DNA from: Pseudomonadota bacterium
GTDB lineage: Bacteria > Pseudomonadota > Gammaproteobacteria > Steroidobacterales > Steroidobacteraceae
Direction: 5' to 3'
Length of the DNA: 64,000 nucleotides
NCBI GenBank assembly: GCA_021847105.1
Contig: JAJZUT010000006.1
Location: 124,001 to 188,000, forward strand
Positions 16,936 through 52,103 of this stretch are shown here, in pieces. Position 1 is the first letter of the stretch; the number at the start of each line of letters is the position of its first letter. The notes under the pieces were generated by a model, which ran no database searches, had not been told where the DNA came from, and saw nothing but the letters and a program-made list of their open reading frames with translations. Position numbers and translations under genes: made by a program.

Positions 16936-16938
16936 CGC

Positions 16939-17634: not shown

Positions 17635-17662
17635 ACTGATATCCGTCCGGTGTGATCCGCCA

Positions 17663-18688
17663 CTATCGGGCGCGCGCCTTGAGCGCCGCGTCAAGTCGCG
17701 GATAGACGCGCCGGGCATTGCCCTCGTAAATCATCTGTCGCTGCGGCGGGTCGAGCGCCGCTGCCTCGACGTAACGCTTGGTGTCGTCGTAGTGATGTCC
17801 CGTGCGCGGGTCGATACCGCGCACTGCTCCGATCATCTCCGAGGCGAACAGGATGTTCTCGATCGGCATAACCCGCGTGAGCAGATCGATTCCCGGTTGA
17901 TGGTAGACGCAGGTGTCGAAGAAGATGTTCTTCAGCAGGTGCTCCTCGAGCGGCGGCTTGTCAAGTCCCTGCGCCAGACCGCGGAAGCGCCCCCAATGGT
18001 ATGGCACGGCACCGCCGCCGTGCGGGATGACGAACTTCAGGGTCGGGAAGTCCTTGAACAGATCGCCGGTCAGGCACTGCATGAACGCCGTCGTATCGGC
18101 ATTGAGGTAATGTGCGCCAGTGGTATGGAAGCACGGATTGCAGCTGGTGCTGACGTGCACCATCGCCGGGATGTCGTATTCGACCATCCGCTCGTAGATC
18201 GGATACCACCAGCGGTCGGTAAGCGGCGGCTCTCTCCAATGTCCGCCCGAGGGGTCCGGATTGAGATTGATGGCGACGAAGCCGTACTCCTTGACGCAGC
18301 GGTCGAGTTCCGCGATGCAGCTGGCCGGCTCGACACCCGGAGACTGCGGCAGCATGGCCGCGCCGATGAATTGATCCGGGAACAGTCGCGCGACGCGCAT
18401 GCACAGCTCGTTGCAGATCGCTGCCCAGGTCGCACTGGTGTTGAAATCCCCGATGTGATGCGCCATGAAACTGGCACGCGGGGAAAAAATGGTCAGATCC
18501 GAGCCCCGCTCGCGCATGAATTTCAGCTGATTGGTCTCGATGCTCTCGCGCAACTCGTCGTCGCTGATCTTCAGCTCCGCGGCCTTTGGGCCGAGTTGCG
18601 GCGTCGACACGTTCGCGACCTGCCGCTTACGCCACTCCTCGAGGGCCTTCGGTGCAGTGGTGTAATGGCCATGGCAATCGATGATCAT
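17663..18688 (-). CDS. ligJ: 4-Oxalomesaconate hydratase
   Basis: 341 residues, the exact family length. The amidohydrolase-superfamily metal motif DCHGHYTT (His6, His8) opens the protein; later blocks are [50 protein letters not shown] and the [14 protein letters not shown] segment. LigJ hydrates 4-oxalomesaconate (enol form) to 4-carboxy-4-hydroxy-2-oxoadipate in a zinc-dependent reaction. It starts 38 bases downstream of the ligU stop. Confidence 0.95.
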
Positions 18689-18726
18689 GCGGTGTCCTCA
18701 GCCTGATTCAGATTACGGCGCAGCGC

Positions 18727-19839: not shown

Positions 19840-19932
19840 AGTTCGATCGGCAACCCGCGGCCTGAGTGGGACGGGCATTATCACGCCACGGCATCGCGCT
19901 TCCAAGAAATGCCCGCCGCTAGCAGATATCAC

Positions 19933-31402: not shown

Positions 31403-32827
<1,425 letters not shown>

Positions 32828-33605: not shown

Positions 33606-35600
33606 TCATGCCGTCCCCAGACGGTAGTCCTGCTGCGTGGCGACATAATGGATGAAGAAATCGAGCGCGTCGGGATTGGCCATGGCGCTGCGATTGGCGG
33701 CCTTCTCCGGCGACATGCCCATCAGGATGCGGCGCACCGGCACTTCCATCTTCTTGCCGGTGATCGTCATCGGAATCGCCGGCACCGCGATTACCTTGTC
33801 CGGCACGTGCCGCGCGGTATATTCGCGGCGCAGCGTCTCGCGGACCCTCTCCGCGACCTGCGCAAGCGCCGCCCCCGGGGCAAGCTTCACGAACAACGGC
33901 ATGAAGAATCCCCCATCCGGCAGATCGAGATTTACGATCAAGGAATCCTCGATCTCGGGCAGCTTCGCGAGCGTGCGATAAATCTCCGCTGTGCCAATGC
34001 GCACACCGTAGCGGTTCAGCGTCGCATCCGAGCGGCCGAGCACCGCCGAGCCGCCCTGCGCGTTGATCCGGAAGAAGTCCCCGTGCCGCCACACACCGGG
34101 GAAATCCGCGAAATAGGTCTCGCGGTAGCGGCTGTTGTCCGGATCGTTCCAGAAATACAAGGGCATCGAGGGCAGCGGCTCGGTGAGCACGAGCTCCCCG
34201 ACCTCATCGAGCACGCTCTCGCCGCGCTCGTTGAATGCCTTCACCGACACGCCCAGCGAGGGTGCCTGGATCTCCCCGGCACGCACCGGCAGCGTCGGCA
34301 CACCGCCCACAAACCCCGTGCAGCAGTCCGTGCCGCCGCTGCCATTGGCAACCCACAGGTCTTCTTTGACAGCCCGATAAAACCACGCCATGCAGTCCGG
34401 CGTCGCCGGCGAGCCCGCCAGGGTGATGCTGCGCAGAGCGCTGAGGTCGTACCGCTCGCGCGGCACGATGCCCGCACGCACCATCTGTTCGACGAACGTC
34501 GGGCTCGCCCCAAGCATCGTCGCACGACCCTCCGCCGCCAGCCGCCACAGCGTGTCGGGCGCCGGATACGTCGGACTGCCGTCATAGAGAATCGGCACCG
34601 CTCCAGTGGCAAGCGAGCTCGCCACGAAGTTCCACAACATCCAGCCGCTGGTGGTAAAGAACAGCAGTCGCTCACCCGGATGCAGATCGAAGTGAAACAG
34701 TGCGTTCTTCATGGTCTCGAGCAGGATGCCGCCATGGCTGTGCACGATCGCCTTGGGCAAACCGGTCGTGCCGGAGGAAAACAGCGTCCACAGCGGCTGA
34801 CCGAACGGACCCTGCTCGAATTCGAATGTCTCGGCTGAGACCGCCGGCCCCTCGAGCAGCCGTGCCCAGCGCAGCGCGTCGGCGCGCGGCAGGCCTGTAT
34901 CCTGTGGATCCAGATACGGCAGATAGATCACCTGTTCGAGGCCATCGAGCCCTGCGAGGATGCGCTCGAGCTCGGCGCGTCGGTCGAAGCGCTTGCCGCC
35001 GTAGCGATAGCCATCGATGCAGAACAGCACCCGAGGATTGAGCTGCGCGATCCGATCGAGCACGCCACGCTCGCCGAAATCCGGCGAGCAGCACGCCCAG
35101 ATCGCGCCGATTGCCGTGGTCGCAAGCATTGCGATGATGGTCTGCGGAATGTTCGGCATCCACGCCACCACGCGATCGCCCGGCCGCACACCCAACTCGC
35201 GCAGGCGGGTCGCCAGCACACGCACCTGAGCAGAGAGCTCGACCCAACTCAGTGGCATGAGCTCCCCATCCTCCGCAGCGTGCAGCAAGGCAACCGGCCC
35301 ATGACGCGCCCCACGCAGCACGTTCTCGGCGTAATTGAGCCGCGCACCCGCAAACCACTCCGCTCCGGGCATGGCACGCTCGGCGAGCACGCGCGTGTAG
35401 GGAGTTGCCTTGATCTCAAAATATTCCCACACCGCCCCCCAGAACGCCTCGACGTCTCGCACCGACCACTGCCACAACTCCATGTAATTTGCGAACGACA
35501 ATCCCCTCGTCTGCCGCAACCAACGGATGAAAGCCGTCACGTTTGCTCTTTCGACCCGCTCCTCGCCTGGAGTCCAGAGAATGTCGCCTGCATGCACCAC
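33606..35600 (-). CDS. Acetoacetate-CoA ligase-like (aryl-)beta-keto-acid:CoA ligase
   Basis: 664 residues, the acetoacetyl-CoA synthetase (AacS) branch of ANL enzymes: MELWQWSVRDVEAFWGAVWE, FAGARLNYAENVL, the P-loop FSSGTTGLPKAIVHSHGG, YYTSSGW-equivalent FFTTSGWMLWN, WRHGDFFRINAQGG and the acceptor Lys in ITGKKMEVPVRRIL. AacS activates acetoacetate with ATP. Here the neighbours suggest an aryl homologue such as vanilloylacetate, as proposed for side-chain degradation in Sphingobium (inference). The start is a GTG at 35600 with GGAGG eight bases upstream; there is no ATG nearby. It is divergent from the amidohydrolase gene. Confidence 0.9.
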   Translation of the reverse strand: MVHAGDILWTPGEERVERANVTAFIRWLRQTRGLSFANYMELWQWSVRDVEAFWGAVWEYFEIKATPYTRVLAERAMPGAEWFAGARLNYAENVLRGARHGPVALLHAAEDGELMPLSWVELSAQVRVLATRLRELGVRPGDRVVAWMPNIPQTIIAMLATTAIGAIWACCSPDFGERGVLDRIAQLNPRVLFCIDGYRYGGKRFDRRAELERILAGLDGLEQVIYLPYLDPQDTGLPRADALRWARLLEGPAVSAETFEFEQGPFGQPLWTLFSSGTTGLPKAIVHSHGGILLETMKNALFHFDLHPGERLLFFTTSGWMLWNFVASSLATGAVPILYDGSPTYPAPDTLWRLAAEGRATMLGASPTFVEQMVRAGIVPRERYDLSALRSITLAGSPATPDCMAWFYRAVKEDLWVANGSGGTDCCTGFVGGVPTLPVRAGEIQAPSLGVSVKAFNERGESVLDEVGELVLTEPLPSMPLYFWNDPDNSRYRETYFADFPGVWRHGDFFRINAQGGSAVLGRSDATLNRYGVRIGTAEIYRTLAKLPEIEDSLIVNLDLPDGGFFMPLFVKLAPGAALAQVAERVRETLRREYTARHVPDKVIAVPAIPMTITGKKMEVPVRRILMGMSPEKAANRSAMANPDALDFFIHYVATQQDYRLGTA

Positions 35601-35681: not shown

Positions 35682-36551
35682 ATGAAGACAGACCAGTTGC
35701 TTGCGATCGACGTCCACACTCATGCGGAAATATCCTGCCGCGAGCCGGCCGACGAGATGTGGAAGGAGTTTGAAGACGCAGCGAGCCAGTATTTCAAGGC
35801 CGGCCGTCGCCCCACCATCTCGGAGACCATCGCCTACTATCGCGAACGCAAGCTCGGCCTGGTGATGTTCACCGTCGACAGTGAGTTCGAAATGGGCGTG
35901 CGCCGCGTTCCCAATGAGGAGGTGGCCGAGGCTGCACGGGATAACGCTGACATGATGCTCGCATTCGCGAGCATAGATCCGCACAAGGGCAAGCTCGGCG
36001 TTCGTCAGGCCCGCCGCCTGCTCGATGAGTACGGCATGCGCGGCTTCAAATTTCACCCAACGTGCCAGGGCTTTTTTCCCAATGAGCGCATGGCCTATCC
36101 GTTGTACGAACTGATCGCCGAGCGGCGGCTTCCGGCAATCTTCCACACCGGTCACTCCGGCATCGGCACCGGCATGCGCGGCGGCGGCGGACTGCGCCTG
36201 AAATACTCTCAACCCATTCATCTCGACGACGTTGCGGCCGATTTCCCCGACATGACCATCATCCTGGCCCACCCGTCCTGGCCGTGGACCGACGAGGCAC
36301 TGTCGGTCGCGCTTCACAAGCCGAACGTCTACATTGATCTGTCCGGATGGCTGCCGCGGTATTTTCCGCCGCAGATCGTGCGCTACGGAAACAGTCAACT
36401 AAAGCACAAGCTCCTGTTCGGGTCGGATTTCCCGCTGATCTCGCCGGACCGCTGGATCGAGGATTTCCGCGCCGCTGGATTCAAGCCCGAGGTACAGGAA
36501 CTCATCCTGAAGGAAAACGCCATTCGCGCGCTCGGCTTGGGCCGTTCCTGA
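35682..36551 (+). CDS. Amidohydrolase_2 family protein, candidate aryl-beta-ketoacyl-CoA hydrolase
   Basis: 289 residues, metal-dependent TIM barrel of the ACMSD/amidohydrolase_2 group: AIDVHTHAEI (HxH), RGFKFHPTCQGFFPN, AIFHTGHSGIGTGMRGGG, IILAHPSWPW and LFGSDFPLISPDRW (catalytic Asp). Members include decarboxylases and the CouO-type 4-hydroxyphenyl-beta-ketoacyl-CoA hydrolases, which split an aroylacetyl-CoA into the aryl acid and acetyl-CoA. The divergent pairing with a beta-keto-acid:CoA ligase favours the hydrolase role; a decarboxylase remains possible. ATG at 35682 gives MKTDQLLAIDVHTHA, the normal start of the fold. Confidence 0.85.
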   Translation: MKTDQLLAIDVHTHAEISCREPADEMWKEFEDAASQYFKAGRRPTISETIAYYRERKLGLVMFTVDSEFEMGVRRVPNEEVAEAARDNADMMLAFASIDPHKGKLGVRQARRLLDEYGMRGFKFHPTCQGFFPNERMAYPLYELIAERRLPAIFHTGHSGIGTGMRGGGGLRLKYSQPIHLDDVAADFPDMTIILAHPSWPWTDEALSVALHKPNVYIDLSGWLPRYFPPQIVRYGNSQLKHKLLFGSDFPLISPDRWIEDFRAAGFKPEVQELILKENAIRALGLGRS

Positions 36552-36618: not shown

Positions 36619-39309
36619 CTACTCCATGCTGACCCGCAGCGTCAGATACCACTCACGCGGTGGGTTGTAGTACGCATCGATAAAGCCAGCGGCGTAGTTC
36701 GGCTGACCCGACGTGATGTAACGATCGTTGGTCAGATTCGTGCCACCGAATGCCACGTCGTACCTTCCGGACGGCGAGATGTAGTGCAGCGAAGCAGCCA
36801 GATTGCGCGTGACCGGGCGCCACATCTGCGGCGTGTCCAGCGAGTCGTTGTACATGCTCGTGGTGTAAGTGAACACCGGGATGAAGCGCAGTGCGGCGCC
36901 ACTTTGCAGGAAGTACGTGTACACCGGATCGAAGCTGAACTTCCAGCGCGGCGTCTTCGGCAGCTTCGCCTGCAGCGGCGAGCCGCCGAGACTGATGCTG
37001 CAGCCGGCCAGCTGCCCCCCCGGACACACGGTGGTGCCATCCGGCAGAGCATACTCCGGGATGTTGGTCCCGGGATTGACCGACGTGTAATACGCGTCGA
37101 GGAATGCCGCCGAGCCGTTCAGCTCGAGACCAGAGCCGATCAGAGACTCCGCCTGCAGCTCCCACCCCATGATCCGCGCATTGCCCGCATTGGTGAGCGT
37201 CGGCGAGGCGCCGTGCTGCACATTGAGCTGTATGCTGTTGAAGTCCGTGTCGAATACGTCGGTATCGACGACCAGATGATCGTTGAACCACGTGGACTTC
37301 AGACCGAGTTCCCACGCCTTGGAGGTCTCAGGTCCGTACTCGGCCTGCTTCGGCGAGGTGATGGGGGCCGACACGCGAGTCGTCCAGCCGCCGGCCATGA
37401 ATCCCTTGCTCCAGCTCACGTACGCCATGACATTCGGCGTGAAGTGGTATTGGATGCCTGCGGTCGGATCGAAGATGTGCCACTGCTGCCCGTCCGGGAT
37501 GTTCGGGAAGTAGCGCAGGAACGGCTGACCGGTCGCGACCGGATAGAGCGCCGAGCCCAGCGGGAAGGAGTTCAGGTCGCTCTGTCCGCCGAGGAAATAG
37601 GCCTGCGCATCCGTGTAGCGGCCGCCGAGCGTGAAGCCCCAGTGGCTGGTCGGATCGTAATCGAGGTGAAAGTAGCCCGCGTAATTGACGTTCTCGGCGT
37701 TGTTCGCAACGTCGTACACCTCGAGGATTCCCTCAAACGGCACGTAGTCGTGCACGTAGCCGGACTCCTTGAAGTAGTACAGGCCGGCGACCCAGTTGAG
37801 CTCGTGATGCAGCGAGCTGCCGAGCAGCTGCAGTTCCTGTGAGATCTGCCACTGGTGCTGGGCGTCCGTCACCTGGAACATCGTCTCGGGCGTGCCGTCG
37901 AGCTCGGTGCCGATGCGCCAACGCATCTGCCGGTAGCCGGTGATCGACTTCAGACTGAGGTCATCGCTGAGCTGATAGTCGCCGGTCGCAGAGAACCCGA
38001 ACACGTCGCTGCGCGCGAAATCAGGTCCGACGCCATAAGTCGTATCGATGTTGCCGGTATTGCTCGCGGCTTGACTCAGGTAGATGCGCGGATTGCTCGA
38101 ACCGAGGTACGCCGTGCCCGGATGATTGTTGTAATTGAACGGCCCGGGAGGTCCGCCCACGTACCCCGCCCCGAGCAGCGGTGCGCCGCCAATTGACAGC
38201 CCGGGCACGTGTGCACGCGGTTGCGAGCAGACGCCGCTGAACAGCGCATTGTTCTGCGAGCCCACCGGAAAGGCCGGGCCGACGCCGGGGATGTTGCTGG
38301 CCGCCGCCACCGCTGCCGGCAGCGTCGCGGCATTGTTCCCGATGCACAGGTTGTACATCGTCGAGAACGTCGCCGAGAGCACATTGCCGGAAAATGCGCC
38401 GACCACGACGTTCGGCATGGAAGTCTGGTCCTCGTGGGTCCAGTCGCCGGTGAAGGTATATTTGAACCGCTTGTTGATTAACCACAGGACTTTGCCGCGC
38501 ATCATCGTGATGCCGGTTCCACCGTAGTTGTTGCCGGTCTGGTAACCGGAGGCGGGATAGGCGGTTTGCGGATCGACTACGAAGGGCGTCTGACCGTAGG
38601 GGGAATTGGTTGGATACGGGATGACCTTCTGCCAGCCGTTCTGGTTTTCGCTGCCGAACGTGATCGTCGTGAGCAGCTTGTGCTTGATGATGGGGATGTC
38701 GGCCGTGAAGGACACGTCCCGCCGGTCGTAGCTGCCGCCGGTTGCCTGAGCGATGAAGCGAGTGTGCTCACCGGGCGTGTGGGTGATGATGCTGATCGCA
38801 CCGCCGATGGTGTTCGCGCCGAACAACGTGCCCTGGGGCCCCTTGGCGATTTCGATGCGAGACACGTCGAGCAGATTGACGTTCGCACCCACCGTGCGCG
38901 CCAGGTACACCCCGTCCAGGTAGACCCCGACGGCCGGATTGATATTGATCGCGAAATCGCTCTGCCCGATGCCGCGAATGGACGCGGACAGAACTGAGTT
39001 GTCGCCCGCGAACGGGGCGCCGCCACTCAGCGTGACCCCCGGGGTCTGCGCGGACAGGGAGGCGAGGCTGGTCAGATTTTCCTGCTGCAGCTGATGGCTG
39101 GTGAAGGCCGTGATCGCGATCGGCACGTTCTGGATATTCTGCCGACGCTTCTGGGCGGTCACGACCACTTCGTGCAGCTTGACCTGATGCATGTCAATTG
39201 GCGCCTGTTGCTGTTGCGCAACGGCCGTACCACACGACAGCGACAGACCCAGGCCGCACAGCGCGAGCGGCCGGGTTGCGACGCGCCGTTTGAGTTGCCT
39301 CAGTTTCAT
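36619..39309 (-). CDS. TonB-dependent outer-membrane receptor
   Basis: 896 residues. A signal peptide (MKLRQLKRRVATRPLALCGL, cleavage near AVAQQQ) is followed by a TonB-box-like HEVVVTAQKRRQNIQNVPIA, the plug domain (QTPGVTLSGGAPF, SIRGIGQSDFAININPAVGV, YLDGVYLARTVG, RIEIAKGPQGTLFGANTIGG) and a long beta-barrel. It is of the sphingomonad/Caulobacter type often used for aromatic or oligomeric substrates rather than siderophores; no iron-related gene is nearby. It lies inside the lignin region and divergent from the phosphotransferase/carboxylase operon, so import of a lignin-derived ketone or oligomer is plausible. ATG at 39309 with GGAGGGGG upstream. Confidence 0.93.
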   Translation of the reverse strand: MKLRQLKRRVATRPLALCGLGLSLSCGTAVAQQQQAPIDMHQVKLHEVVVTAQKRRQNIQNVPIAITAFTSHQLQQENLTSLASLSAQTPGVTLSGGAPFAGDNSVLSASIRGIGQSDFAININPAVGVYLDGVYLARTVGANVNLLDVSRIEIAKGPQGTLFGANTIGGAISIITHTPGEHTRFIAQATGGSYDRRDVSFTADIPIIKHKLLTTITFGSENQNGWQKVIPYPTNSPYGQTPFVVDPQTAYPASGYQTGNNYGGTGITMMRGKVLWLINKRFKYTFTGDWTHEDQTSMPNVVVGAFSGNVLSATFSTMYNLCIGNNAATLPAAVAAASNIPGVGPAFPVGSQNNALFSGVCSQPRAHVPGLSIGGAPLLGAGYVGGPPGPFNYNNHPGTAYLGSSNPRIYLSQAASNTGNIDTTYGVGPDFARSDVFGFSATGDYQLSDDLSLKSITGYRQMRWRIGTELDGTPETMFQVTDAQHQWQISQELQLLGSSLHHELNWVAGLYYFKESGYVHDYVPFEGILEVYDVANNAENVNYAGYFHLDYDPTSHWGFTLGGRYTDAQAYFLGGQSDLNSFPLGSALYPVATGQPFLRYFPNIPDGQQWHIFDPTAGIQYHFTPNVMAYVSWSKGFMAGGWTTRVSAPITSPKQAEYGPETSKAWELGLKSTWFNDHLVVDTDVFDTDFNSIQLNVQHGASPTLTNAGNARIMGWELQAESLIGSGLELNGSAAFLDAYYTSVNPGTNIPEYALPDGTTVCPGGQLAGCSISLGGSPLQAKLPKTPRWKFSFDPVYTYFLQSGAALRFIPVFTYTTSMYNDSLDTPQMWRPVTRNLAASLHYISPSGRYDVAFGGTNLTNDRYITSGQPNYAAGFIDAYYNPPREWYLTLRVSME

Positions 39310-39706
39310 AACAGTGATCCCCCTCCGGAACAATTCGCCCCTTGGTGAACTGACTCTATCGGCCGCAGCCGTCCGCGGGCTGGGTTCGGACGGCGCCTCG
39401 CCCGGTCATGCTGCCGGGTTGCGATGGGTCTAGCATTACAGCAACTGAGCCTAGCTCAGCGCGAGTTTCCACTGCGCGGATCACAGCGCAAAGGTTATGA
39501 ACTGGCAGCGCAACCGCGCCGGCGGCTGCACCACGGGTCGATCCCGTTGCGCTGTGGTGCGCGCCGCCCGGGGAACGGGGTGATTAAACTCATCGGCAGC
39601 CGCTGCGCCGAGAAGCGCCGCGGGTCATTGCGATGCCGCCGGGAGTCGTACCATTAACACCACAGTTAAACCCAAAGGGTTTCCGCTGCCGAGTTCGGTC
39701 AAGGTC
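39310..39706. promoter_or_regulatory. Divergent regulatory region between the TonB receptor and the phosphotransferase operon
   Basis: About 400 bases without a gene. Elements seen: CCGTCCG-N11-CGGACGG (39369-39393), CTGAGC-CTA-GCTCAG (39445-39459), a direct repeat CAGCGCAA-N14-CAGCGCAA (39484-39513, 22-base period, AraC-like) and an inverted copy TTGCGCTG at 39547-39554. The AraC gene at 46710 is the likely regulator of the operon. The last part (39653-39706) looks coding in the frame of the next gene. Confidence 0.45.
39484..39513. promoter_or_regulatory. CAGCGCAA direct repeats, candidate AraC operator
   Basis: Two identical octamers 22 bases apart plus an inverted copy about 40 bases further on, 140-220 bases before the operon's first start codon. 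Two helical turns between tandem half-sites fits AraC-family binding. Confidence 0.4.
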
Positions 39707-41476
39707 GTGGCCGGTACCGAACGGGCGCAGGCGGCATACCCCTATACCATCCAGTTCGGCCCCGAGGACGATGGGCGTTTCTGGTTCTACAATTCGATGC
39801 ACTTCCCGGAGCCGATGTCGTGCTTCGATATGGTGACGGCTGAGGCGGCTTACTGCGCACTCGGCGCGGCCAATACGCGCGTGCATTGCCTGCCGACCAC
39901 CCTCGGCATCGATCACAGGATCATCAATGGCCGCGTCTACATCGGCGGCAATGCGGTCACCGATCCGGCCGAGATCGCCCGGCGCACCGAGCAGTTCCAG
40001 AAGCGCGCCTTTTACTACTACGAGAACTGGGAGCGGCTGTACGGCTCGTGGAAGGAGAAGATGCTCGCGCTGATCCGTTCTGCCGAGGCGCTGCCCAGAC
40101 CGGCACTGCCGGAATTCGAGCCGCTCGAGAACGTGCATGCCGGTCGCGGCCTCGCGGCGAACCACACGCTGCTCGAGACCTACCAGAAAACGCTCGAGGG
40201 CTACTTCCGAATGTGGCACCACCACTTCGAATTTCTGCTCCTCGGTTACGGCGCCTATCTCACCTTCTTCGCCTTCTGCAAGCAGGCATTTCCGGAGATC
40301 TCCGATCAGACCATCGCCCGCATGGTGGCGGGCATCGACGCGGAGATCTTCCGCCCCGACGAGGAGCTGCGCCGCCTCGCGCGCCGCGCCGTCGAGCTGC
40401 GGGTGGACGGCCAGTTCCAGGATGGGCTGTCCGCCACCACCATCATCGCCTCACTCGAGCAGGCCGGCCCGGCGGGCGAGGAGTGGCTGCGGGAGCTCGC
40501 CACTTCGCGCGATCCATGGTTCAACATCAACGTCGGCGACGGATTTTATCATTATCACCGCTCCTGGAACGATGACCTGTCGATGCCGTTTGCCGGACTG
40601 CCCGGCTACATCGCCCGCGTCAAGGCCGGCGAGTCACTCGAGCGCCCATTCGAGAAGCTGCAGCAGGAGCGGCGCGAACTGATTGCCGCCTACCGCGAGC
40701 TGTTGAGCTCCGATGAGGAACGGATCGCGTACGACCAGATGATTGAGCTCGCCCATCGCGTCTTTCCGTACGTTGAGGGCCACAAGTTCTACTGCGAGCA
40801 CTGGTACACCAACCTGTTCTTCAACAAGGTGCGAGAATTCGGCGCGCTGCTCGCCGAACATGGATTCTTTGCGGACGCCGAGGATGTCTTTCATCTCACT
40901 CATTACGAGCTCGAGGCCGCGATCATCGACCTGATGAACGCCTGGTCGACCGGCTCGAAGCCGCGCGGCCCCGCGCATTGGCCGCCGCTCGTGGCGGAAC
41001 GGCGCGCGGCGCTCGAGGTCTGGGCTCAACACCCCACCCCGCCGGCGCTGGGACCGGTACCTGAGATCATCGACGATCCGGCCATCGTGATGCTCTGGGG
41101 CATTACCCGCGAGAGCCTCGACACCTGGCTCAACGCCGACGGCAAGGACACCAGTAATGAAATTCGTGGCTTTGCCGCCTCGAACGGTGTCGTTGAGGGT
41201 CCCGCGCGAGTGATCAAGTCGGTCGATGACATCGGCCGGATCCAGTCGGGGGACATTCTGGTCTGCCAGATCACCAACCCCACCTGGGCGCCGATCTTCC
41301 AGAAGATTGCGGGCGCCGTGTCCGATATCGGCGGTTCAATGAGCCATGCGGCGATCGTCGCGCGCGAATTCGGCCTGCCGGCCGTCGTCGGCACGGGCAG
41401 CGCGACGAGCCGCATCAAGGACGGCCAGCGAGTCCGCGTCGATGGCGGGCGCGGCGTCGTTACGGTTCTCGGCTGA
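39707..41476 (+). CDS. PEP-synthase-like phosphotransferase, mobile (swivelling His) subunit; phenylphosphate-synthase/hydroxyarylketone-kinase type
   Basis: At least 589 residues. The C-terminal 100 residues are a PEP-utilising mobile domain with the phosphorylated histidine in GGSMSHAAIVAREFGLPAVV (His547). The first 480 residues (FWFYNSMHFPEP, FYYYENWERLYGSWKEKML, WHHHFEFLLLGYGAYLTFF) are helical and resemble the substrate half of phenylphosphate synthase PpsA. With the next gene it should transfer the beta-phosphate of ATP to a phenolic hydroxyl. The conventional start is GTG at 39707, but upstream codons encode FPLPSSVKVV, which looks like the family N-terminus, so translation may begin at ATT 39653 (GGGAG seven bases before). 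Confidence 0.85.
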   Translation: MAGTERAQAAYPYTIQFGPEDDGRFWFYNSMHFPEPMSCFDMVTAEAAYCALGAANTRVHCLPTTLGIDHRIINGRVYIGGNAVTDPAEIARRTEQFQKRAFYYYENWERLYGSWKEKMLALIRSAEALPRPALPEFEPLENVHAGRGLAANHTLLETYQKTLEGYFRMWHHHFEFLLLGYGAYLTFFAFCKQAFPEISDQTIARMVAGIDAEIFRPDEELRRLARRAVELRVDGQFQDGLSATTIIASLEQAGPAGEEWLRELATSRDPWFNINVGDGFYHYHRSWNDDLSMPFAGLPGYIARVKAGESLERPFEKLQQERRELIAAYRELLSSDEERIAYDQMIELAHRVFPYVEGHKFYCEHWYTNLFFNKVREFGALLAEHGFFADAEDVFHLTHYELEAAIIDLMNAWSTGSKPRGPAHWPPLVAERRAALEVWAQHPTPPALGPVPEIIDDPAIVMLWGITRESLDTWLNADGKDTSNEIRGFAASNGVVEGPARVIKSVDDIGRIQSGDILVCQITNPTWAPIFQKIAGAVSDIGGSMSHAAIVAREFGLPAVVGTGSATSRIKDGQRVRVDGGRGVVTVLG

Positions 41477-41477
41477 C

Positions 41478-42530
41478 ATGAGCGCCATCAGCTGGTTCCC
41501 CGAGGTTGGGCTCGGCGATCGTGCGCGCGTCGGTGGCAAGGGTGGCAGCCTCGGCGAGCTCGTGCGCGCGGGCATCAGCGTTCCGCCCGGCTTTGTGGTC
41601 GCCACCGAGGCGTTCGAGCAGTTCCTGACGGCGCTCGAGGCAGGCGAGCCCGTGCGCGAGCGCATCGAGGCCCTGCCGGCCGATGATCTGCCGGCCATCA
41701 CGGCCTGCTCGCAGGCGCTGCGCAGTCGAATCGAGCAGACGGCGCTGCCAGAGGCTCTGAGTGAACAGATCACGGCGGCACACGCGCAACTGTGTGCCGA
41801 GAGCGCCTCAGGGCCCACACTCGCCGTGGCAGTACGCTCCTCCGCCACGACGGAGGATGCCGCCGACGCCAGTTTCGCCGGGCTGCAGGATACACACCTG
41901 TGGGTGAGGGGCACCCTCGACACCCTGCGCCTGATCCGCAGCTGCTGGGCCAGTCTGTACTCGGTGGAGTCGATCAGCTACCGCCGCCACCGACGGCTTC
42001 CCGAGCAGGGCGTGTCGATGGCCGTGGTGGTGCAGCGTATGGTCGATGCCCGCACCGCCGGGGTGATGTTCACCCGCAGCCCGACCACCGGGGATCGCTC
42101 CGTCATCACCATCGAAGGCGCTTGGGGGCTGGGCTCGGCGGTCGTGGGGGGGGAAGTGACGCCCGACCGCTGGGTCATCGGCAAGATCACCGGTGAGATC
42201 GGCGTGCGGGACATCTCCGACAAGGCGATTCAACATCTGCCGGCGATCTCCGGGGGCATTCGCACCGAACCGGTCGACGATGCGCAGCGGCGCACCCCCT
42301 GCCTCAGCGACGATCAGCTGAGCGCGCTGTGCGCGATCGGCCGCCGCGTCGAGCGTCATTATGGCCGGCCGCAGGACATCGAGTGGGCGATCGAACGCAG
42401 CAGCGGCGAGGTGCTGTTGCTGCAGAGTCGTCCCGAGACCGTCTGGTCATCCCGGGATGCTGGGCCCGTCGCGCGGGCCGCCGGCAACCCTTTCACGCAT
42501 GTCATGTCAATTTTTGGAGGCCGCAGGTGA
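41478..42530 (+). CDS. PEP-synthase N-terminal-like ATP-grasp subunit (phenylphosphate-synthase B type)
   Basis: 350 residues that match only the nucleotide-binding part of PEP synthase: GGKGGSLGELVRAGISVPPG with FVV, VRSSATTEDAADASFAG (ATP site), TAGVMFTRSPTTGD, and the terminal ATP-grasp block DIEWAIERSSGEVLLLQSRP. It lacks the swivelling His and PEP domains, which are supplied by the preceding gene one base upstream. PpsB of Thauera phenylphosphate synthase has the same truncated form and length. Expected role: ATP to AMP plus phosphate, phosphorylating the His of the partner. ATG at 41478; the frame upstream of it is antisense-like noise. Confidence 0.9.
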   Translation: MSAISWFPEVGLGDRARVGGKGGSLGELVRAGISVPPGFVVATEAFEQFLTALEAGEPVRERIEALPADDLPAITACSQALRSRIEQTALPEALSEQITAAHAQLCAESASGPTLAVAVRSSATTEDAADASFAGLQDTHLWVRGTLDTLRLIRSCWASLYSVESISYRRHRRLPEQGVSMAVVVQRMVDARTAGVMFTRSPTTGDRSVITIEGAWGLGSAVVGGEVTPDRWVIGKITGEIGVRDISDKAIQHLPAISGGIRTEPVDDAQRRTPCLSDDQLSALCAIGRRVERHYGRPQDIEWAIERSSGEVLLLQSRPETVWSSRDAGPVARAAGNPFTHVMSIFGGRR

Positions 42531-43036
42531 CGCTCACAGCGCAGGATGTCGCGGATATCACGCGGTTGCTCGAGGAGTCGAGCTTCGATGAACTGTATCT
42601 GGAGCTTGATGGGCTGAAGCTCAGCTTGCGTCGTCAGGGCGCCGGTGGCGCGCCCGCTGCACCTGCCCTCGCCGACTCACCGCCACCGGCCGCTCCACGC
42701 AACGCAGGCCCGGCGCCCGACGTCGCGCCCTCGCCCCAACCGGCGGCCTCCGCGCCATCGGCGCGCACCGCAGCGACCCAGAGCGACGTACAGAGCGTCG
42801 CCGCGCCGCTGCTCGGCACGTTCTACCGCGCCCCCAAGCCCGGCGCCGCGCCGTTCGTCGAGATCGGATCGCAGGTCAAGGAAGACACCGTCATCGGAAT
42901 CATCGAGGTGATGAAGCTGATGAACGCCGTACGGGCCGGCACGTGCGGCATCGTTGCTGAAATCGTGGCGCAGGACGGTGCGCTCGTGGAGTATGGCGAG
43001 GCGCTGGTGCGCATCGACACAACGGGGCAGGCGTGA
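42527..43036 (+). CDS. Biotin carboxyl carrier protein (AccB-like)
   Basis: 169 residues. The N-terminus ITRLLEESSFDELYLELDGL is the AccB dimerisation-like motif, followed by a Pro/Ala-rich linker (about 45-85) and a biotinyl domain with GTFYRAPKPGAAPFVEIGSQ and the biotin-accepting Lys130 in EVMKLMN. The start is GTG at 42527, overlapping the previous stop (GTGA) with TTTTGGAGG seven bases upstream. It carries carboxybiotin between the biotin carboxylase and transferase encoded next. Confidence 0.93.
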   Translation: MTLTAQDVADITRLLEESSFDELYLELDGLKLSLRRQGAGGAPAAPALADSPPPAAPRNAGPAPDVAPSPQPAASAPSARTAATQSDVQSVAAPLLGTFYRAPKPGAAPFVEIGSQVKEDTVIGIIEVMKLMNAVRAGTCGIVAEIVAQDGALVEYGEALVRIDTTGQA

Positions 43037-44400
43037 CGATCAAACGGATTCTCATCGCCAACCGGGGCGAGATCGCCGCACGCATCATCCGCACATGCCG
43101 CCTGCTCGGCATCGAAACCGTGCTGGCGGCCTCGAGCGCGGATCGACACTCCGTGCCGGCACGTCTGGCCGACCGCACGCTGTGCATCGGACCGGCGCGC
43201 TCGACCGAGAGCTATCTGCAGGTGGGAACGATCGTGCAGGCGGCACTCGGCGTACGGGCCGATGCGATTCATCCAGGTTATGGCTTTCTCTCCGAGCGCG
43301 CCGCACTCGCCCGCGCGTGTGAGGAGAACGGCATCATTTTCATCGGCCCCACGGCCGAGCAGATCGCCTCGGTCGGCGATAAGCTGCGCGCGCGCAGCGA
43401 GGCGCAGGCCGCCGACGTCCCAGTCGTACCGGGCGGTGCCGTCGAGGACCTGGAGGATGCCATGACGCTCGCCGTGCGTCTCGGCGCGCCGCTGCTGGTC
43501 AAAGCAGTCGGCGGTGGTGGCGGGCGCGGCATGAAACGCATCGAGGACGTCACGGAACTGCCGCAGGCCGTGCAGCTCGCCGCCTCGGAAGCCGGCGTCG
43601 CCTTCGGCGATGCACGGCTGTATCTGGAACGCTTCGTGACCGGCGGGCGCCACATTGAAGTGCAGGTACTCGGCGATGGCGCCGGACGAGTGATTCACCT
43701 CGGGGAGCGGGACTGCTCCGTGCAACGGCGTTACCAGAAACTGATCGAGGAAACACCCGCGCCAAATCTGTCCGCGTCCCTGCGTGAACGACTGCATGCC
43801 GCCGCCGTGCGCTTTGCCGAACGCCTCGCCTACCGCGGAGCGGGGACCGTGGAGTTCCTGGTCGATCCTGCACGCGATGCATTCTATTTTCTCGAAATGA
43901 ATGCCCGTATTCAGGTCGAGCACCCGGTCACCGAGGCGGTCACCGGCATCGACCTGATCGCAGAGCAGATCGCCATTGCCGACGGTGCAGGCCTGCGAAT
44001 TCGCCAGGAGCAAATCACCTGGCAGGGCTGCGCACTCGAGTGCCGCGTGAACGCGGAGGATCCCGCGCGCGATTTCCAACCCAGCCCCGGCCGCGTGGCT
44101 ACGGTGCGGTGGCCGGCTGGTGAGGGCATTCGCGTCGACACACACATCGAGGCCGGCTCGCAAGTGCCCCCGTTCTACGACTCGCTGCTCGCCAAGATCA
44201 TCGCACACGCGCCAAACCGCACCGCCGCCCTGATGCGCATGCGTCAGGCACTCATCGCGGCCCAGGTCACCGGGATCAGTACCAATCTGACTTTGCACCA
44301 GGACATTCTCGCCGACGCGCAATTCCAGGCCGGAGGCGTGGATACGGGCTTTCTCACCCGGTACCTGCAGCGTTCGGACACGGGAGCCGCTCATGGCTGA
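43033..44400 (+). CDS. Biotin carboxylase subunit (AccC-like)
   Basis: 455 residues, complete biotin carboxylase: ILIANRGEIAARIIRTCR, HPGYGFLSERAALARAC, ATP-grasp Gly-rich loop KAVGGGGGRGMKRI, ERDCSVQRRYQKLIEETPAP and FLEMNARIQVEHPVTEAVTG with FDLI-type end GIDLI. It carboxylates the biotin of the carrier with bicarbonate and ATP. Since the neighbouring transferase is not an AccA/AccD type, this is a dedicated second copy rather than the fatty-acid enzyme. Start GTG at 43033, overlapping the carrier stop (GTGA). Confidence 0.94.
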   Translation: MTIKRILIANRGEIAARIIRTCRLLGIETVLAASSADRHSVPARLADRTLCIGPARSTESYLQVGTIVQAALGVRADAIHPGYGFLSERAALARACEENGIIFIGPTAEQIASVGDKLRARSEAQAADVPVVPGGAVEDLEDAMTLAVRLGAPLLVKAVGGGGGRGMKRIEDVTELPQAVQLAASEAGVAFGDARLYLERFVTGGRHIEVQVLGDGAGRVIHLGERDCSVQRRYQKLIEETPAPNLSASLRERLHAAAVRFAERLAYRGAGTVEFLVDPARDAFYFLEMNARIQVEHPVTEAVTGIDLIAEQIAIADGAGLRIRQEQITWQGCALECRVNAEDPARDFQPSPGRVATVRWPAGEGIRVDTHIEAGSQVPPFYDSLLAKIIAHAPNRTAALMRMRQALIAAQVTGISTNLTLHQDILADAQFQAGGVDTGFLTRYLQRSDTGAAHG

Positions 44401-45874
44401 GATTCAACTCGTCGAGACCTCGTTGCGCGACGGCAATCAATGTGTTTGGGCGGCACTCGGCATTGACACCGCGAGAACCCTCTCGATTGCCCCCGTCATG
44501 GACCAGGTGGGCTTCAAGGCAATCGACTTCACGACCTCGACGCACATGGGGGTCGCCGTACGCTACAAGCGCGAGGACCCTTGGGAGCGGATCCGGCTGA
44601 TGGCCGCGGCGACGCCGCGCACACCGCTGCAGTTCATGTCGACGGGCTTTCGCTTTATTTCCTGGGAAACGGCCAGTCCGGAATTCATGGCACTCGCCTT
44701 CCGGACGCTGGCCCGCAACGGCATCCGGCGATTCTGCCTTGCCGACCCAATGAACGATACCGACGCCACGATGGCCTGCGCACGCATGGTGCACGAGGGC
44801 GGTGGTGAGCACGTGATCGCCGCTCTGGTCTTCACGATCAGCCCGATCCACGATGACGCCTACTATGCCGAGCGGGCGCGCCGGCTGGCGGCCTGCCCGG
44901 ACATCGATGCACTCTATATCAAGGACCCCGGCGGCCTGCTCTCTGCGCAGCGCGCCGCAAAGCTGATACCGGCGATCAAGGCACAGATCGGCAGCAAGCC
45001 GCTCGAGTTACACTCGCACTGCACCATCGGGCTGGCCGAGTTGCTGTACATGGAGGCCGCTCAGCTCGGCGTGAGCGCACTGCAGTGCGCCTCAGGCGCG
45101 GCGGCCGACGGTATCTCCAACCCGCCCGCCGCTCGGGTGGTCGCCAATTTGCGCGCCCTGGGTCATAGCGTCGACATCGATACCGAAGCGCTCGCCGCGG
45201 TCGATCGTTACTTCACTCAACTGGCGCAGGCCGAAGGCCTGCCGGCGGGACGCCCGCAGGGTTTCGATGCCAGTTACCAGCATCACCAGCTGCCAGGGGG
45301 CATGGTGGGCACCATGCGCCGGCATCTGCAAGAGAGCCGCATCGCGCATTTGGAAAGTGCCGTCATCGAGGAACTCGGCCGCGTACGTCAGGAGCTCGGC
45401 TGGCCGATCGTGATGACACCGTTCTCGCAGGTCCTGCTGACGCAGGCGGTCATGAACGTCACGAGCCGCGAGCGCTACGCGACCATGCCGGATGAGTTGA
45501 TCCGTTACGCGCTCGGCCGCTTCGGCAAGCCGACGGTACCGATCGATGCGCAGATCATGGATCGCATCCGCTCACTACCGCGCACGCGGGAGCTCGAGGC
45601 AGAGCCACCGATGGCGCCGCTGCCGGAGCTGCGCCGCAGACTCGGTGCCCGGCTCTCGGATGAGGAGTTTCTGCTGCGCGCCACCATGCCGCAGACTCAA
45701 GTGGATGCGATGCTCGCGGCCGGACCGGCTGCGCGTCATTACGATCCGGCGGTAAGGCCCGCGTTGGCATTGATCCGCAAGCTCACCGCGCGGCACGATT
45801 TGACGGAAGTATTGGTGGACAAGCCCGGCTTTCGACTGCACTTGCGCCGCACGTCACGGCCCGTGGCGCCATGA
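44393..45874 (+). CDS. Carboxyltransferase subunit, pyruvate-carboxylase/HMGL-like type
   Basis: 493 residues. HMGL-like TIM barrel: VETSLRDGNQCVWAALG (metal Asp), FCLADPMNDT, YIKDPGGLLSAQRAAKLIP (the KD of the PC family's IKDMAGLL; the carbamylated Lys of pyruvate carboxylase is elsewhere and was not placed), ELHSHCTIGLAEL (metal His pair), and a C-terminal region with YQHHQLPGGMVGTMRRHL (compare YxHQxPGGQ in oxaloacetate decarboxylase). It should pass CO2 from carboxybiotin to an enolisable ketone methyl. In the Hpe and Acv systems for hydroxyarylketones the acceptor is the phospho-acetophenone. It overlaps the carboxylase gene by 8 bases. Confidence 0.88.
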   Translation: MAEIQLVETSLRDGNQCVWAALGIDTARTLSIAPVMDQVGFKAIDFTTSTHMGVAVRYKREDPWERIRLMAAATPRTPLQFMSTGFRFISWETASPEFMALAFRTLARNGIRRFCLADPMNDTDATMACARMVHEGGGEHVIAALVFTISPIHDDAYYAERARRLAACPDIDALYIKDPGGLLSAQRAAKLIPAIKAQIGSKPLELHSHCTIGLAELLYMEAAQLGVSALQCASGAAADGISNPPAARVVANLRALGHSVDIDTEALAAVDRYFTQLAQAEGLPAGRPQGFDASYQHHQLPGGMVGTMRRHLQESRIAHLESAVIEELGRVRQELGWPIVMTPFSQVLLTQAVMNVTSRERYATMPDELIRYALGRFGKPTVPIDAQIMDRIRSLPRTRELEAEPPMAPLPELRRRLGARLSDEEFLLRATMPQTQVDAMLAAGPAARHYDPAVRPALALIRKLTARHDLTEVLVDKPGFRLHLRRTSRPVAP

Positions 45875-46713
45875 GCACGCCCACCGAGAGCGCAGCGCCG
45901 GGTGCCATCGCCGGCTGGATGTTCGACGTTGACGGCACATTGCTGCTCAGTGACCGCGCGCTCGGCAGTTACCAGCTGCTGCCGGGCGCGGTAGAAGTGC
46001 TCAGCGCCTTACGCGAACGCAACTACCCGTTCGTGCTGCTCACCAACGGCAGCAACTACGCGCCGGCCGAGCAAGCCGAAAAGCTGCGCCGGTGCGGCCT
46101 GCCCATCGAAGATCGGCAAATGCTCACCCCCTCGGTGGTGACGGCCGATCACATGTCCCGCCGGGACATCCGTCGTGTCCTGGTGCTCGGCACCCGGGGC
46201 GTCGGCCATGCGTTGGCCGAGGCAGGAATCGAGACGCGCTACACCGGGGAGCCTCGGGCTGCCGAGGTGGATGCGGTGTACGTCGGCTGGCACCCCGAAT
46301 GCGGCATGAAGGACATTGAGACCGCCGCGCAGGCAATCTGGGCAGGCGCCAGACTCTACGCTGCTTCCGACGTGCCATTCTTTGCAACCCGCCAGGGACG
46401 CACCATCGGCTACAGCTACGCGATTCTCGGGGCGATCCGGCGCCTGACCCGCGCCCCGGTCATTCTCACCGGCAAGCCCTCGCTGCACGCGCTGCGCTTG
46501 GTCGCTCGACGTCTGGGCGTGGGAATGCGCGAGGTGGGCGTGGTCGGAGACGATCCGCTGGTTGAGGTCATCATGGCCCATCGCGGTGGCGCGACGGCGC
46601 TCGCGGTTACCACTGGAACGACGAGCCGCGAGGACTGGCTGCGCCAGAGCGGCAAATGCCGGCCCCACCACATTCTCCGCGAGCTGCGCGAAGTGTTGAA
46701 TTATCTGCCCTAA
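45871..46713 (+). CDS. HAD-IIA family phosphatase (NagD / 4-nitrophenylphosphatase-like)
   Basis: 280 residues. HAD motifs are complete: motif I WMFDVDGTLLLSD (nucleophile Asp about 19), motif II LLTNGSN, motif III Lys in LTGKPSLHALR and motif IV VGDDPLVEVI; the C2a cap between motifs II and III is of class IIA. NagD/PNPPase-type enzymes hydrolyse aryl phosphates, so here it could release phosphate from the phosphorylated aryl ketone or its carboxylation product. Starts with an ATGA overlap; its stop overlaps that of the convergent AraC gene by three bases. Confidence 0.9.
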   Translation: MSTPTESAAPGAIAGWMFDVDGTLLLSDRALGSYQLLPGAVEVLSALRERNYPFVLLTNGSNYAPAEQAEKLRRCGLPIEDRQMLTPSVVTADHMSRRDIRRVLVLGTRGVGHALAEAGIETRYTGEPRAAEVDAVYVGWHPECGMKDIETAAQAIWAGARLYAASDVPFFATRQGRTIGYSYAILGAIRRLTRAPVILTGKPSLHALRLVARRLGVGMREVGVVGDDPLVEVIMAHRGGATALAVTTGTTSREDWLRQSGKCRPHHILRELREVLNYLP

Positions 46714-47657
46714 CTGACAGTCCGGTGCCGGTAGCCGTGCGGCGTACAACCAAACCGGCGCCGGAACCGGCGCGCGAAATGACTCGGATCGATGAAGCCG
46801 CAACGGGCAGCGATTTCCGCGATCGGCAGCTCTCGCGCCCGACCATCGGCGAGCAGTTCACGCGCCCGCTCCAGGCGGATGCGCATCAACTCCTCGATGA
46901 ACGTGGTCCCAGCCGCTGCGAACGTGTAATGCAGGCTACGCACCGACATGTGCAACTCGCCGGCAAGTGCGGCGGGTGACAGATCCGGTTCGGCATATCG
47001 GCCGTTGAGCGCACGGACCACGCGCTCGCGCAGCGGCCGCGGCGCCGCGCCAGCGGGCTCGGGCGCGATCGCAAGCTTCAGCAGGGCCGCGACGTGCCCC
47101 GCCACCTCCTCGGGCGGCAGCGCCAGGTTGTCGCAGCCATCGATCTCAAGACTGCCCACCGCCGCGCACAGTGCCGCCCCCCAGCCTCCGCCAGCGACCC
47201 GCAGCGGTACGAGTGCCTCGGGATGTTCCAGGTAACGACGCAGCCAGACTTCGGGCAGCGTCAGCACTAAAGAGCAGGTGGGCAGCGGACACTCCACCTC
47301 GTAGGGCGCCCGGCCATCGATCAGCACGCATTCCCCCGGATACAACGGGGTCGAGCGCCCCGCCTGGCGCACCAGAACGCGGCCGGCACGCAACTGCATC
47401 AACATGAAGGCCGATTGCCGCGTGCGCGCAATCTTTGCACTGGTGCGGCGCACGCGCTGGACATCCGCACGGATCATGTTGACGATCGCCGGTCCGAGTT
47501 CGGTCTGATCGAGTTGGGCCTGGAAACCGGTGCGCACGGGCGTGTCGATGTCGAGCTCGAGAAACCGGTCGCAGACCGTGTCGACCCAATAAGAGAGCGC
47601 CCGACGCGGCTCAACCGCGTCAGTCGACCAGTGATGGGTGCCCGAAACGAACTGCAC
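46710..47657 (-). CDS. AraC-family regulator, likely controller of the phosphotransferase/carboxylase operon
   Basis: 315 residues with an AraC_binding_2 sensor domain (HWSTDAVEPRRALSYWVDTV at the N-terminus, AFMLMQLRAGRVLVRQAGR, GECVLIDGRAPYEVE) and a C-terminal double HTH (LSPAALAGELHMSVRSLHYT, IAEIAARCGFIDPSHFARRF, RRRFGCTPHGYRH). The N-terminal HWSTD....YW pattern is that of activators of aromatic-compound genes. I choose the GTG at 47657 because GGAGGGGGGATC precedes it directly and the family N-terminus starts there; 47699 (ATG) and 47843 are alternatives. It meets the operon's last gene tail to tail. Confidence 0.88.
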   Translation of the reverse strand: MQFVSGTHHWSTDAVEPRRALSYWVDTVCDRFLELDIDTPVRTGFQAQLDQTELGPAIVNMIRADVQRVRRTSAKIARTRQSAFMLMQLRAGRVLVRQAGRSTPLYPGECVLIDGRAPYEVECPLPTCSLVLTLPEVWLRRYLEHPEALVPLRVAGGGWGAALCAAVGSLEIDGCDNLALPPEEVAGHVAALLKLAIAPEPAGAAPRPLRERVVRALNGRYAEPDLSPAALAGELHMSVRSLHYTFAAAGTTFIEELMRIRLERARELLADGRARELPIAEIAARCGFIDPSHFARRFRRRFGCTPHGYRHRTVS

Positions 47658-47775
47658 GATCCCCCCTCCACCGCAGACGGGAAAGCCCCTGCCGCCCATG
47701 CTGCCTCGTCGTGGTGCATCTGACAACCAGCCCCGCGAGGCACGGTCAAGTTCACGGCGAGGCTCGGTGGGCAGA

Positions 47776-48804
47776 CTACGCCCCGGGCGTCGCTGCGCGC
47801 TCGGAAAACTCCTCGGAGTCGACGTCCGCCTGGCCGGCGGCACCGTATCGGGCTCCGCTCACGGTGCGCTCATTGATCAGCGCATCTAGCTGCGCAAGCG
47901 TCGCGTCCGACAGCCGCAGCGCCTGAGCAGCCATGTTCTCACGAAGGTGCGACACCTGAGTGGTGCCCGGAATGGCCACGAGGCGCTCGGCGCGACTCAG
48001 CAGCCACGCGAGCGCCAGCTGCGCTGGGGTGCACTCATTCTCGTGCGCGATCCGCCGATACGGCTCGAGCAGCTGCAGATTGCGCGCATAGTTCTGGGCA
48101 TTGAAGCGCGGCATGGTATGGCGCAGATCGCCGGGCGGCAGCCCGGAGAGGTCGGTCAGTTGCCCCGTCAAAAACCCGCGCGCGAGCGGCGAGAACGCCA
48201 CCAGCGTCACGCCGAGGTCGCGGCAGGCCTCCAGCACCGCAATCTCGGGATTGCGTGTCCACAGCGAATATTCGTTCTGCAAAGCCACAATCGGGTGGAC
48301 GGCATGCGCCTTGCGCAGCGTCGCAGCGGATACTTCCGACAAGCCGATGGCGCGGATCTTTCCCTCGCGCACCAAGTCGGCCAACATCCCGACGCTCTCC
48401 TCGATGGGCACTCGCCGGTCCCAGCGATGCAGGTAATAGAGATCGATCACCTCGGTGTTCAACCGCCGCAGACTATCCTCGCAATTGCGACGAATGACAT
48501 GCGGTCGGCCGTCGATGACCCGCTTGCCATCGACACCCGCGAGCCCCCCTTTGCTGGCCAGCAGGATGCGCGAGCGATGCGGCGCGAGCACCCGGCCGAG
48601 GAGCGTCTCATTCGCCCCGAAACCATAGAGTGCGGCCGTATCGAAGTGATCCACGCCGAGCTCGAGTGCGGCCAGCAGCACGCGCTCGGCATGCTCGCGC
48701 GCGATCGGCACGCCATAGGCGTGGCTGAGATTCATGCATCCCAGGCCGATGGGACCAACGGTCCACGGACCGATGCGGCGTAATGGAGCGGACGAGGTAC
48801 TCAT
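47776..48804 (-). CDS. Aldo/keto reductase
   Basis: 342 residues, AKR fold with the tetrad: Asp and Tyr in DHFDTAALYGFGANE, Lys in ILLASKGGL, His in LYYLHRWDRRVPIEE. C-terminal NADPH site IPGTTQVSHLRENMAA. It is of the YajO/Tas-like group (AKR11-13). Substrate cannot be read; aromatic aldehydes or alpha-keto compounds are common. It is 65 bases downstream of a LysR gene, possibly in the same transcript. Confidence 0.93.
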   Translation of the reverse strand: MSTSSAPLRRIGPWTVGPIGLGCMNLSHAYGVPIAREHAERVLLAALELGVDHFDTAALYGFGANETLLGRVLAPHRSRILLASKGGLAGVDGKRVIDGRPHVIRRNCEDSLRRLNTEVIDLYYLHRWDRRVPIEESVGMLADLVREGKIRAIGLSEVSAATLRKAHAVHPIVALQNEYSLWTRNPEIAVLEACRDLGVTLVAFSPLARGFLTGQLTDLSGLPPGDLRHTMPRFNAQNYARNLQLLEPYRRIAHENECTPAQLALAWLLSRAERLVAIPGTTQVSHLRENMAAQALRLSDATLAQLDALINERTVSGARYGAAGQADVDSEEFSERAATPGA

Positions 48805-50903: not shown

Positions 50904-51749
50904 TCAGGCAGCCATGCGCTCCATCAACATCAGACCCGCAGCGGTGTTGGAAATCGGGATGTGGTAGTTGGAGTGGACCGTTTTCGCCGCCCCGCCGAGC
51001 GCCGCGCGCGCAGCCAGCCACATCAGCAATTCGATGCCCTGGGTTCCGGTCTGCTCGACCAGTTCGCCGATCGAATAGCGAGTAGCCCACAGCGGGTCGG
51101 TCGGAAGCTTTTCCATGAATTCCAGATCGAACTTCTTGTTGATGAAGCCGGCGCGCTGGCCGTCGAGCTGGTGACTCAAACCGCCGGTGCCGATCACCAC
51201 CACGCGCTTGTCGGCGTCGTAGGATTGAATTGCGCGGCCGACGGCCTCGCCGAGCTTGAAGCAGCGCGCGGCCGACGGCAACGGATGTTGCACGGTGTTG
51301 ATACAGACCGGCACGATGCTGACCGGCCAGGCGCCGCCAGTCGGCCACAGCAGGGCCATCGGGATCGTGCAGGCGTGATCGATCAGCATCTCTTGGCAAG
51401 TGGTGACGTCGAACTCCTCGCCGACCAGCTTCTCGATGAGATGCCAGGAAAAATGCGGGTCGCCCGCCACGGGCGGCAGAGTCGGAATGCCCCACCCCTC
51501 GTCCGCATTGGTGTACTGGGGTGCGGCACCGACCGCAAACGTCGGCATCTTATCGAGGAAGAAATTGAGCCCGTGGTCATTGTAGAAGATGACCGCGACG
51601 TCCGGCCGCACCTTGCCGAGCCAGGCATGCACCGGCGCGAAGCCGTCGAAGAACGGCTTCCAGTACGGGTCGGTGCGCAGGTTGCGGGCGATCGCACCGC
51701 CGATGGCAGGCACGTGCGAGGTGGTGATTGCTCCGACGATCTTGGCCAT
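50904..51749 (-). CDS. Second LigB-type extradiol dioxygenase, catalytic subunit
   Basis: 281 residues, class III extradiol fold. Fe ligands His12 (TTSHVPAIGG), His59 (YNDH) and Glu in GIELLMW, plus catalytic His in GTGGLSHQLDG and LIDHACTIP, are all retained, so it should be active. It differs from the pathway LigB at substrate-near positions (YNDHGLNFF against YNDHVNAFD), and is only moderately similar. Candidate substrates are gallate, 3-O-methylgallate or another protocatechuate analogue. The gene follows ligA2 after 3 bases. Confidence 0.9.
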   Translation of the reverse strand: MAKIVGAITTSHVPAIGGAIARNLRTDPYWKPFFDGFAPVHAWLGKVRPDVAVIFYNDHGLNFFLDKMPTFAVGAAPQYTNADEGWGIPTLPPVAGDPHFSWHLIEKLVGEEFDVTTCQEMLIDHACTIPMALLWPTGGAWPVSIVPVCINTVQHPLPSAARCFKLGEAVGRAIQSYDADKRVVVIGTGGLSHQLDGQRAGFINKKFDLEFMEKLPTDPLWATRYSIGELVEQTGTQGIELLMWLAARAALGGAAKTVHSNYHIPISNTAAGLMLMERMAA

Positions 51750-51752
51750 GGC

Positions 51753-52103
51753 TTACTTCCCCGCGGCCGTCAATTTGGCCTTAAATTGATCTTTGGACAT
51801 ACCGGTTTGCTGGGCACCAAGGTCCTGCACGTCGAGCCCGAAGATGCCGGCGAGCTTGGCCAGGTAGTAGACGTTGCCACCGGCAGCGATCAGCTCGAGA
51901 ACGTTGCGGTGCCGCACCGCTTCGCGCTGCTCGGCACTGAGGCCATAGCGTGCGCAATATGCATCTTCGTTACGTTTGAATTCCTCCCGATTGGCCGCCG
52001 AGTTGAATGAATAACACATCTTGTTCAACGCATAACCCTTGATGGCCTGCGCCCCGTCGAACAGGGTCGTGCCAGGGATCTGTCGGGACGTGCCGGCCTG
52101 CAT
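51753..52103 (-). CDS. Second LigA-type dioxygenase alpha subunit
   Basis: 116 residues with the LigA fold: IPGTTLFDGAQAIKGYALNK then MCYSFNSAANREEFKRNEDA, REAVRHRNVLELIAAGGNVY, QQTGMSKDQFKAK. It is shorter than the pathway LigA at the N-terminus and lacks the C-terminal GGRSP tail. It pairs with the LigB-type gene 3 bases downstream. ATG at 52103. Confidence 0.88.
   Translation of the reverse strand: MQAGTSRQIPGTTLFDGAQAIKGYALNKMCYSFNSAANREEFKRNEDAYCARYGLSAEQREAVRHRNVLELIAAGGNVYYLAKLAGIFGLDVQDLGAQQTGMSKDQFKAKLTAAGK

Follow-up and report, generated by a model that had tools for sequence, protein, structure and literature searches.

Six head-to-tail genes on the forward strand (39653-46713) of the window, by which the whole 64,000-nucleotide stretch of gammaproteobacterial DNA is meant, very probably encode an Acv/Hpe-type system for the activation of hydroxyphenylethanones (acetovanillone), placed within the Acv clade; the probability of this reading is estimated at about 0.88. 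Acetovanillone is a lignin-derived ketone. The acetovanillone operon is complete and probably works. It belongs to a known pathway whose mechanism is already described and is no new kind of system; in this regard, an earlier sequence-only reading had overrated its novelty, as its pathway is an established one and the same version is widespread in related metagenome genomes.

Genes of the operon and proposed activation chemistry

The six coupled genes proposed in that reading are all present and intact, each open reading frame running without internal stops between the following coordinates:

39653..41476, + strand: AcvA/HpeH-type kinase subunit with substrate-binding and swivelling-His domain (607 aa, probable ATT start)
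41478..42530, + strand: AcvB/HpeI-type ATP-grasp kinase subunit (350 aa)
42527..43036, + strand: biotin carboxyl carrier protein (EVMKLMN biotin site, Lys130)
43033..44400, + strand: biotin carboxylase subunit (three-domain biotin carboxylase)
44393..45874, + strand: carboxyltransferase subunit (PYC/OADA fold, Acv/Hpe clade)
45871..46713, + strand: HAD-IIA (NagD/PNPP-type) phosphatase, AcvF/HpeD-like

The junctions are, in order, a 1-bp gap and overlaps of 4, 4, 8, and 4 bp. The Pfam/NCBIfam domains of the six products are PEP-utilizers (swivel), PPDK_N, Biotin_lipoyl, three-domain biotin carboxylase, PYC_OADA/HMGL-like, and HAD-IIA. The first two genes encode a two-component dikinase of the HpeH/HpeI type, in which a swivelling-His subunit is joined by a separate ATP-grasp subunit, as had been claimed; the larger subunit has its catalytic His in an intact SDIGGSMSHAA motif, and the best match of the ATP-grasp subunit among solved structures is 9GOJ, named HpeI by the structure's authors. 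The complete biotin carboxylase with a pyruvate-carboxylase-type transferase is equally borne out: its three subunits include a transferase of the Hpe/Acv clade with intact RDGNQ/KDPGG/HSH motifs, and the biotin-lysine motif of the carrier protein is preserved. The phosphatase, correctly assigned to the NagD/PNPP type, retains DVDGT/TNG/GKPS/GDD. Dozens of genomes, spread over several phyla, have the same six-gene order, which is therefore far beyond chance.

A start of the first gene at 39653 requires an ATT codon. This is probably the right start, because close relatives have their ATG at the aligned position, the first GTG (39707) comes only after a conserved FPLPSS motif, and GGGAG stands immediately 5′ of the ATT. 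The GGGAG-ATT spacing taken alone has no significance; a simple scan found no promoter-like site near the operon, and RNA folding upstream of it revealed nothing unusual.

In the proposed mechanism, the larger kinase subunit, to whose swivelling His the ATP-grasp subunit would hand ATP, would phosphorylate acetovanillone at the phenol. Carboxylation by the biotin carboxylase set would follow at the acetyl methyl group of this phosphorylated product, and the HAD phosphatase would strip the phosphate, presumably after carboxylation, to give vanilloylacetate. As far as homology can tell, this sequence of phosphorylation, carboxylation, and dephosphorylation, already put forward from the sequence, matches the tested Hpe/Acv pathway (PMC9618137, PMC12167813, PMC13101465). 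In the pathway of Rhodococcus rhodochrous GD02, the kinase HpeHI acts on acetovanillone and 4-hydroxyacetophenone. HpeCBA accepts these ketones for carboxylation only in their phosphorylated form, HpeD takes the phosphate off, and HpeE/HpeF have been proposed to release an aromatic acid and acetyl-CoA (PMC9618137). The homologous acvABCDEF set of strain SYK-6, moved into RHA1, led to the conversion of acetovanillone (PMC13101465).

Neighbouring genes, downstream route, and substrate

Further genes related to the pathway are linked to the operon in the window:

12814..19932, − strand: other protocatechuate 4,5-cleavage genes (LigC-like dehydrogenase, LigK aldolase, 4-oxalomesaconate tautomerase, a second LigB-type dioxygenase, and amidohydrolases that are LigI/LigJ candidates)
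31424..32827, + strand: LigM, THF-dependent vanillate/3-O-methylgallate O-demethylase (742 bits against a curated cut-off of 580)
33606..35600, − strand: acetoacetyl-CoA-ligase-like enzyme of the HpeE type, predicted aroylacetate-CoA ligase (operon-associated clade)
35682..36551, + strand: amidohydrolase-superfamily protein of the HpeF/CouO type, predicted beta-ketoacyl-CoA hydrolase yielding vanillate and acetyl-CoA
36619..39333, − strand: TonB-dependent receptor, divergent from the operon (possible uptake)
46710..47843, − strand: AraC/FeaR-family regulator, convergent with the operon (position kept in close relatives)
50904..52103, − strand: LigB and LigA, protocatechuate 4,5-dioxygenase subunits

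The HpeE/HpeF-type ligase and amidohydrolase genes lie 3-6 kb upstream of the operon and are not part of it. In the ligase tree, the window enzyme falls in a 13-row clade (support 99) with Hpe/Acv-type operon-linked ligases from Rhizobium, Pseudomonas, Streptomyces, and others, apart from acetoacetyl-CoA ligases of the generic kind, a further copy of which is present in the genome. CouO, a near relative of HpeF, is a member of the amidohydrolase superfamily (PMC4737184). These two enzymes would convert vanilloylacetate to vanillate and acetyl-CoA, after which demethylation by LigM would yield protocatechuate for 4,5-cleavage. A receptor of the same family as the TonB-dependent receptor also stays near the operon in close relatives. 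The downstream route had been described as complete; it is largely present, the window encoding the ligase, the amidohydrolase, LigAB, LigM, and the greater part of protocatechuate 4,5-cleavage.

Within 12814-21964, the protocatechuate 4,5-cleavage genes adjoin genes for a formyl-THF deformylase (PurU) and an MTHFR-like protein, neighbours that would be fitting for the recycling of one-carbon units from LigM demethylation. A PcaD-like alpha/beta hydrolase is encoded between the LigM and ligase genes (32882-33646).

Hpe and Acv enzymes also take 4-hydroxyacetophenone and acetosyringone, so the choice of substrate rests on genome context. The host genome contains no DesA match above cut-off, the top DesA-type score being the LigM gene itself, and no PobA above cut-off; the host is known only from a draft genome 88% complete, in which gene absences are weak evidence. 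Because this search gave neither enzyme, vanillate is the product with a recognised onward route, and acetovanillone is therefore favoured as the best-supported substrate. The proposal of acetovanillone is in this way sustained by context, while still being an inference from sequence and context. It is unlikely, on balance, that the same pathway serves 4-hydroxyacetophenone or acetosyringone as its natural substrate. Such a preference would agree with HpeCBA, which favours 4-hydroxyacetophenone phosphate (PMC9618137), with the Acv enzymes of SYK-6, the closest to those of the window, whose relative activity is highest on acetosyringone (PMC13101465), and with the LigM family name, which covers 3-O-methylgallate too. 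However, with PobA and DesA missing above cut-off from the 88% complete genome, 4-hydroxybenzoate and syringate lack a recognised next step.

Affiliation of the kinase and the carboxyltransferase

Comparison with Hpe, Acv, and phenylphosphate synthase (Pps) sequences, as the sequence-only reading had suggested, places Acv closest, at 50-75% identity, with Hpe at about 36-50%. A Sphingobium genome with a 4,199,332-bp chromosome, which we take to be that of SYK-6, carries a matching operon with the order kept and identities of 74.6% (H), 64.8% (I), 50.3% (carrier protein), 69.8% (biotin carboxylase), 72.7% (transferase), and 55.7% (phosphatase). The operon of Sphingobium nicotianae gives much the same values. 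The Hpe reference is the plasmid operon of Rhodococcus JS3073, a GD02-like set whose HpeI is near-identical to the crystallised GD02 HpeI. The window has counterparts of all its eight functions, with identities of 47% (H), 44% (I), 50% (biotin carboxylase), 46% (transferase), 36% (phosphatase), 43.5% (ligase), and 52% (amidohydrolase, against HpeF).

Percent identity alone fails to separate the Hpe, Pps, and Cre kinases (41-48%), and trees were needed for this reason. In a kinase tree of 38 rows, the window sequence belongs to a 26-row clade (support 100/100) that includes the Sphingobium Acv sequences and excludes the Hpe, Pps, and Cre types; the Pps reference is an Azoarcus KH32C protein whose gene adjoins phenylphosphate carboxylase. 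Long branches leave the branching order of Hpe, Pps, and Cre unsure, and the Acv clade is unaffected. It is highly improbable that the kinase is a phenol/cresol phosphorylating system of the Pps/Cre type beside an unrelated carboxylase. The kinase identities of 43% (against a Pps) and 41-42% (against Cre-type proteins) would allow it, but the tree sets Pps and Cre apart from the window, and the window kinase, like that of the presumed SYK-6 and with the same profile pattern, scores below the cut-offs of the NCBIfam models on which Pps and Cre proteins reach 1300 and 1160 bits. Moreover, the operon has no phenylphosphate carboxylase genes or P450, and its kinase is not of the Pps clade linked to phenylphosphate carboxylase. 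Tree and profile scores led to the rejection of this alternative.

The predicted structure of the larger kinase subunit has a mean pLDDT of 74.6, with low confidence in residues 541-568, just before and around the catalytic His. The model matches rifampin phosphotransferase (RPH, 5fbt) along the greater part of the chain (453 residues, Z 15.4, rmsd 4.5), and the structure search listed no other whole-length match. HpeH is likewise related to RPH, the kinase being a two-part relative of rifampin phosphotransferase (PMC12167813).

In the transferase tree, the window and Sphingobium Acv sequences form one clade (support 100), to which neither the genome's own pyruvate carboxylase nor the proteins of oxaloacetate-decarboxylase type belong. 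Almost no credence is given to the idea that the kinase stands by chance beside a general pyruvate carboxylase/oxaloacetate decarboxylase set, an alternative rejected on this tree: the PYC_OADA domain of the transferase and its conserved RDxxQ, K-D, and HxH speak for it, but the genome encodes a fused pyruvate carboxylase of its own (27% identity), and kinase, carboxylase, and phosphatase are kept together across phyla. By sequence, kinase and transferase alike group with Sphingobium Acv and not with phenylphosphate synthase or pyruvate carboxylase, the affiliations that the sequence-only reading had set against itself. A further gammaproteobacterial subgroup of transferases (36-39% identity) is sister to the Hpe/Acv clade.

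Distribution, variants, and known counterparts

A transferase scan confirmed at least 573 relatives. Among the matches listed, the best were gammaproteobacterial metagenome genomes, one of them labelled Steroidobacteraceae (about 84% identity), and the next best were Acidobacteria and sphingomonads; close orthologues occur across the host lineage and both these groups. The kinase is carried by 21 of the 119 genomes of the window's own relatives.

In 33 of 81 operon loci, no biotin carboxylase gene lies between the carrier and the transferase. Mapping its presence or absence onto the transferase tree takes seven changes, of which well-supported branches force five or more, and the dedicated gene appears to have been lost repeatedly in relatives. 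Six genomes with such an operon that were searched contain elsewhere only biotin carboxylases of 42-49% identity; the simplest reading is that such bacteria share the housekeeping enzyme. In another ten loci, a Tm-1-like (UPF0261) protein replaces the two-part kinase and the carboxylase-phosphatase set is the same. The closest solved relative of the Tm-1-like protein is 9mpy, which may be the reported single-component kinase MarK.

The pathway is now placed in an uncultured gammaproteobacterial lineage, where ring-cleavage genes and a gene possibly for uptake lie near it, and it has near relatives in Acidobacteria. Very few cultured strains have been reported to grow on hydroxyphenylethanones (PMC13101465), and the distribution suggests that the trait is far commoner in nature than cultures imply. 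Tentatively, and with less than even confidence, the region might be regarded as a near self-contained acetovanillone island with a dedicated TonB receptor for the import of hydroxyphenylethanones, whose uncultured hosts, with their Acidobacteria counterparts, could be major natural users of acetovanillone. New enzyme sets for lignin use are on offer, and knowledge of the mechanism is unchanged.

Compared with known systems, the operon most resembles AcvABCDEF of Sphingobium lignivorans SYK-6 in its six functions, gene order, identity, and shared kinase and transferase clades. The window host, however, is a gammaproteobacterium, and ligase, amidohydrolase, LigM, TonB receptor, and LigAB genes are near its operon, whereas in SYK-6 the last two steps are encoded elsewhere in the genome (PMC13101465). 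HpeHICBADEF of R. rhodochrous GD02, compared via JS3073, shares the eight functions including ligase and amidohydrolase, but is about 36-52% identical and forms a separate clade; the window ligase and amidohydrolase genes sit outside the operon, and the residue before the catalytic His is Ser in the window and Cys in Hpe. The Tm-1-like/UPF0261 variant (P. putida YC-AE1, sphingomonad, and Geobacter loci) has the carboxylase and phosphatase, and often also the ligase and amidohydrolase, with one Tm-1-like protein in place of the H-I kinase pair. PpsAB (phenylphosphate synthase) and CreHI (cresol kinase) are homologous two-component dikinases which belong to other clades and are linked to phenylphosphate carboxylase or P450.
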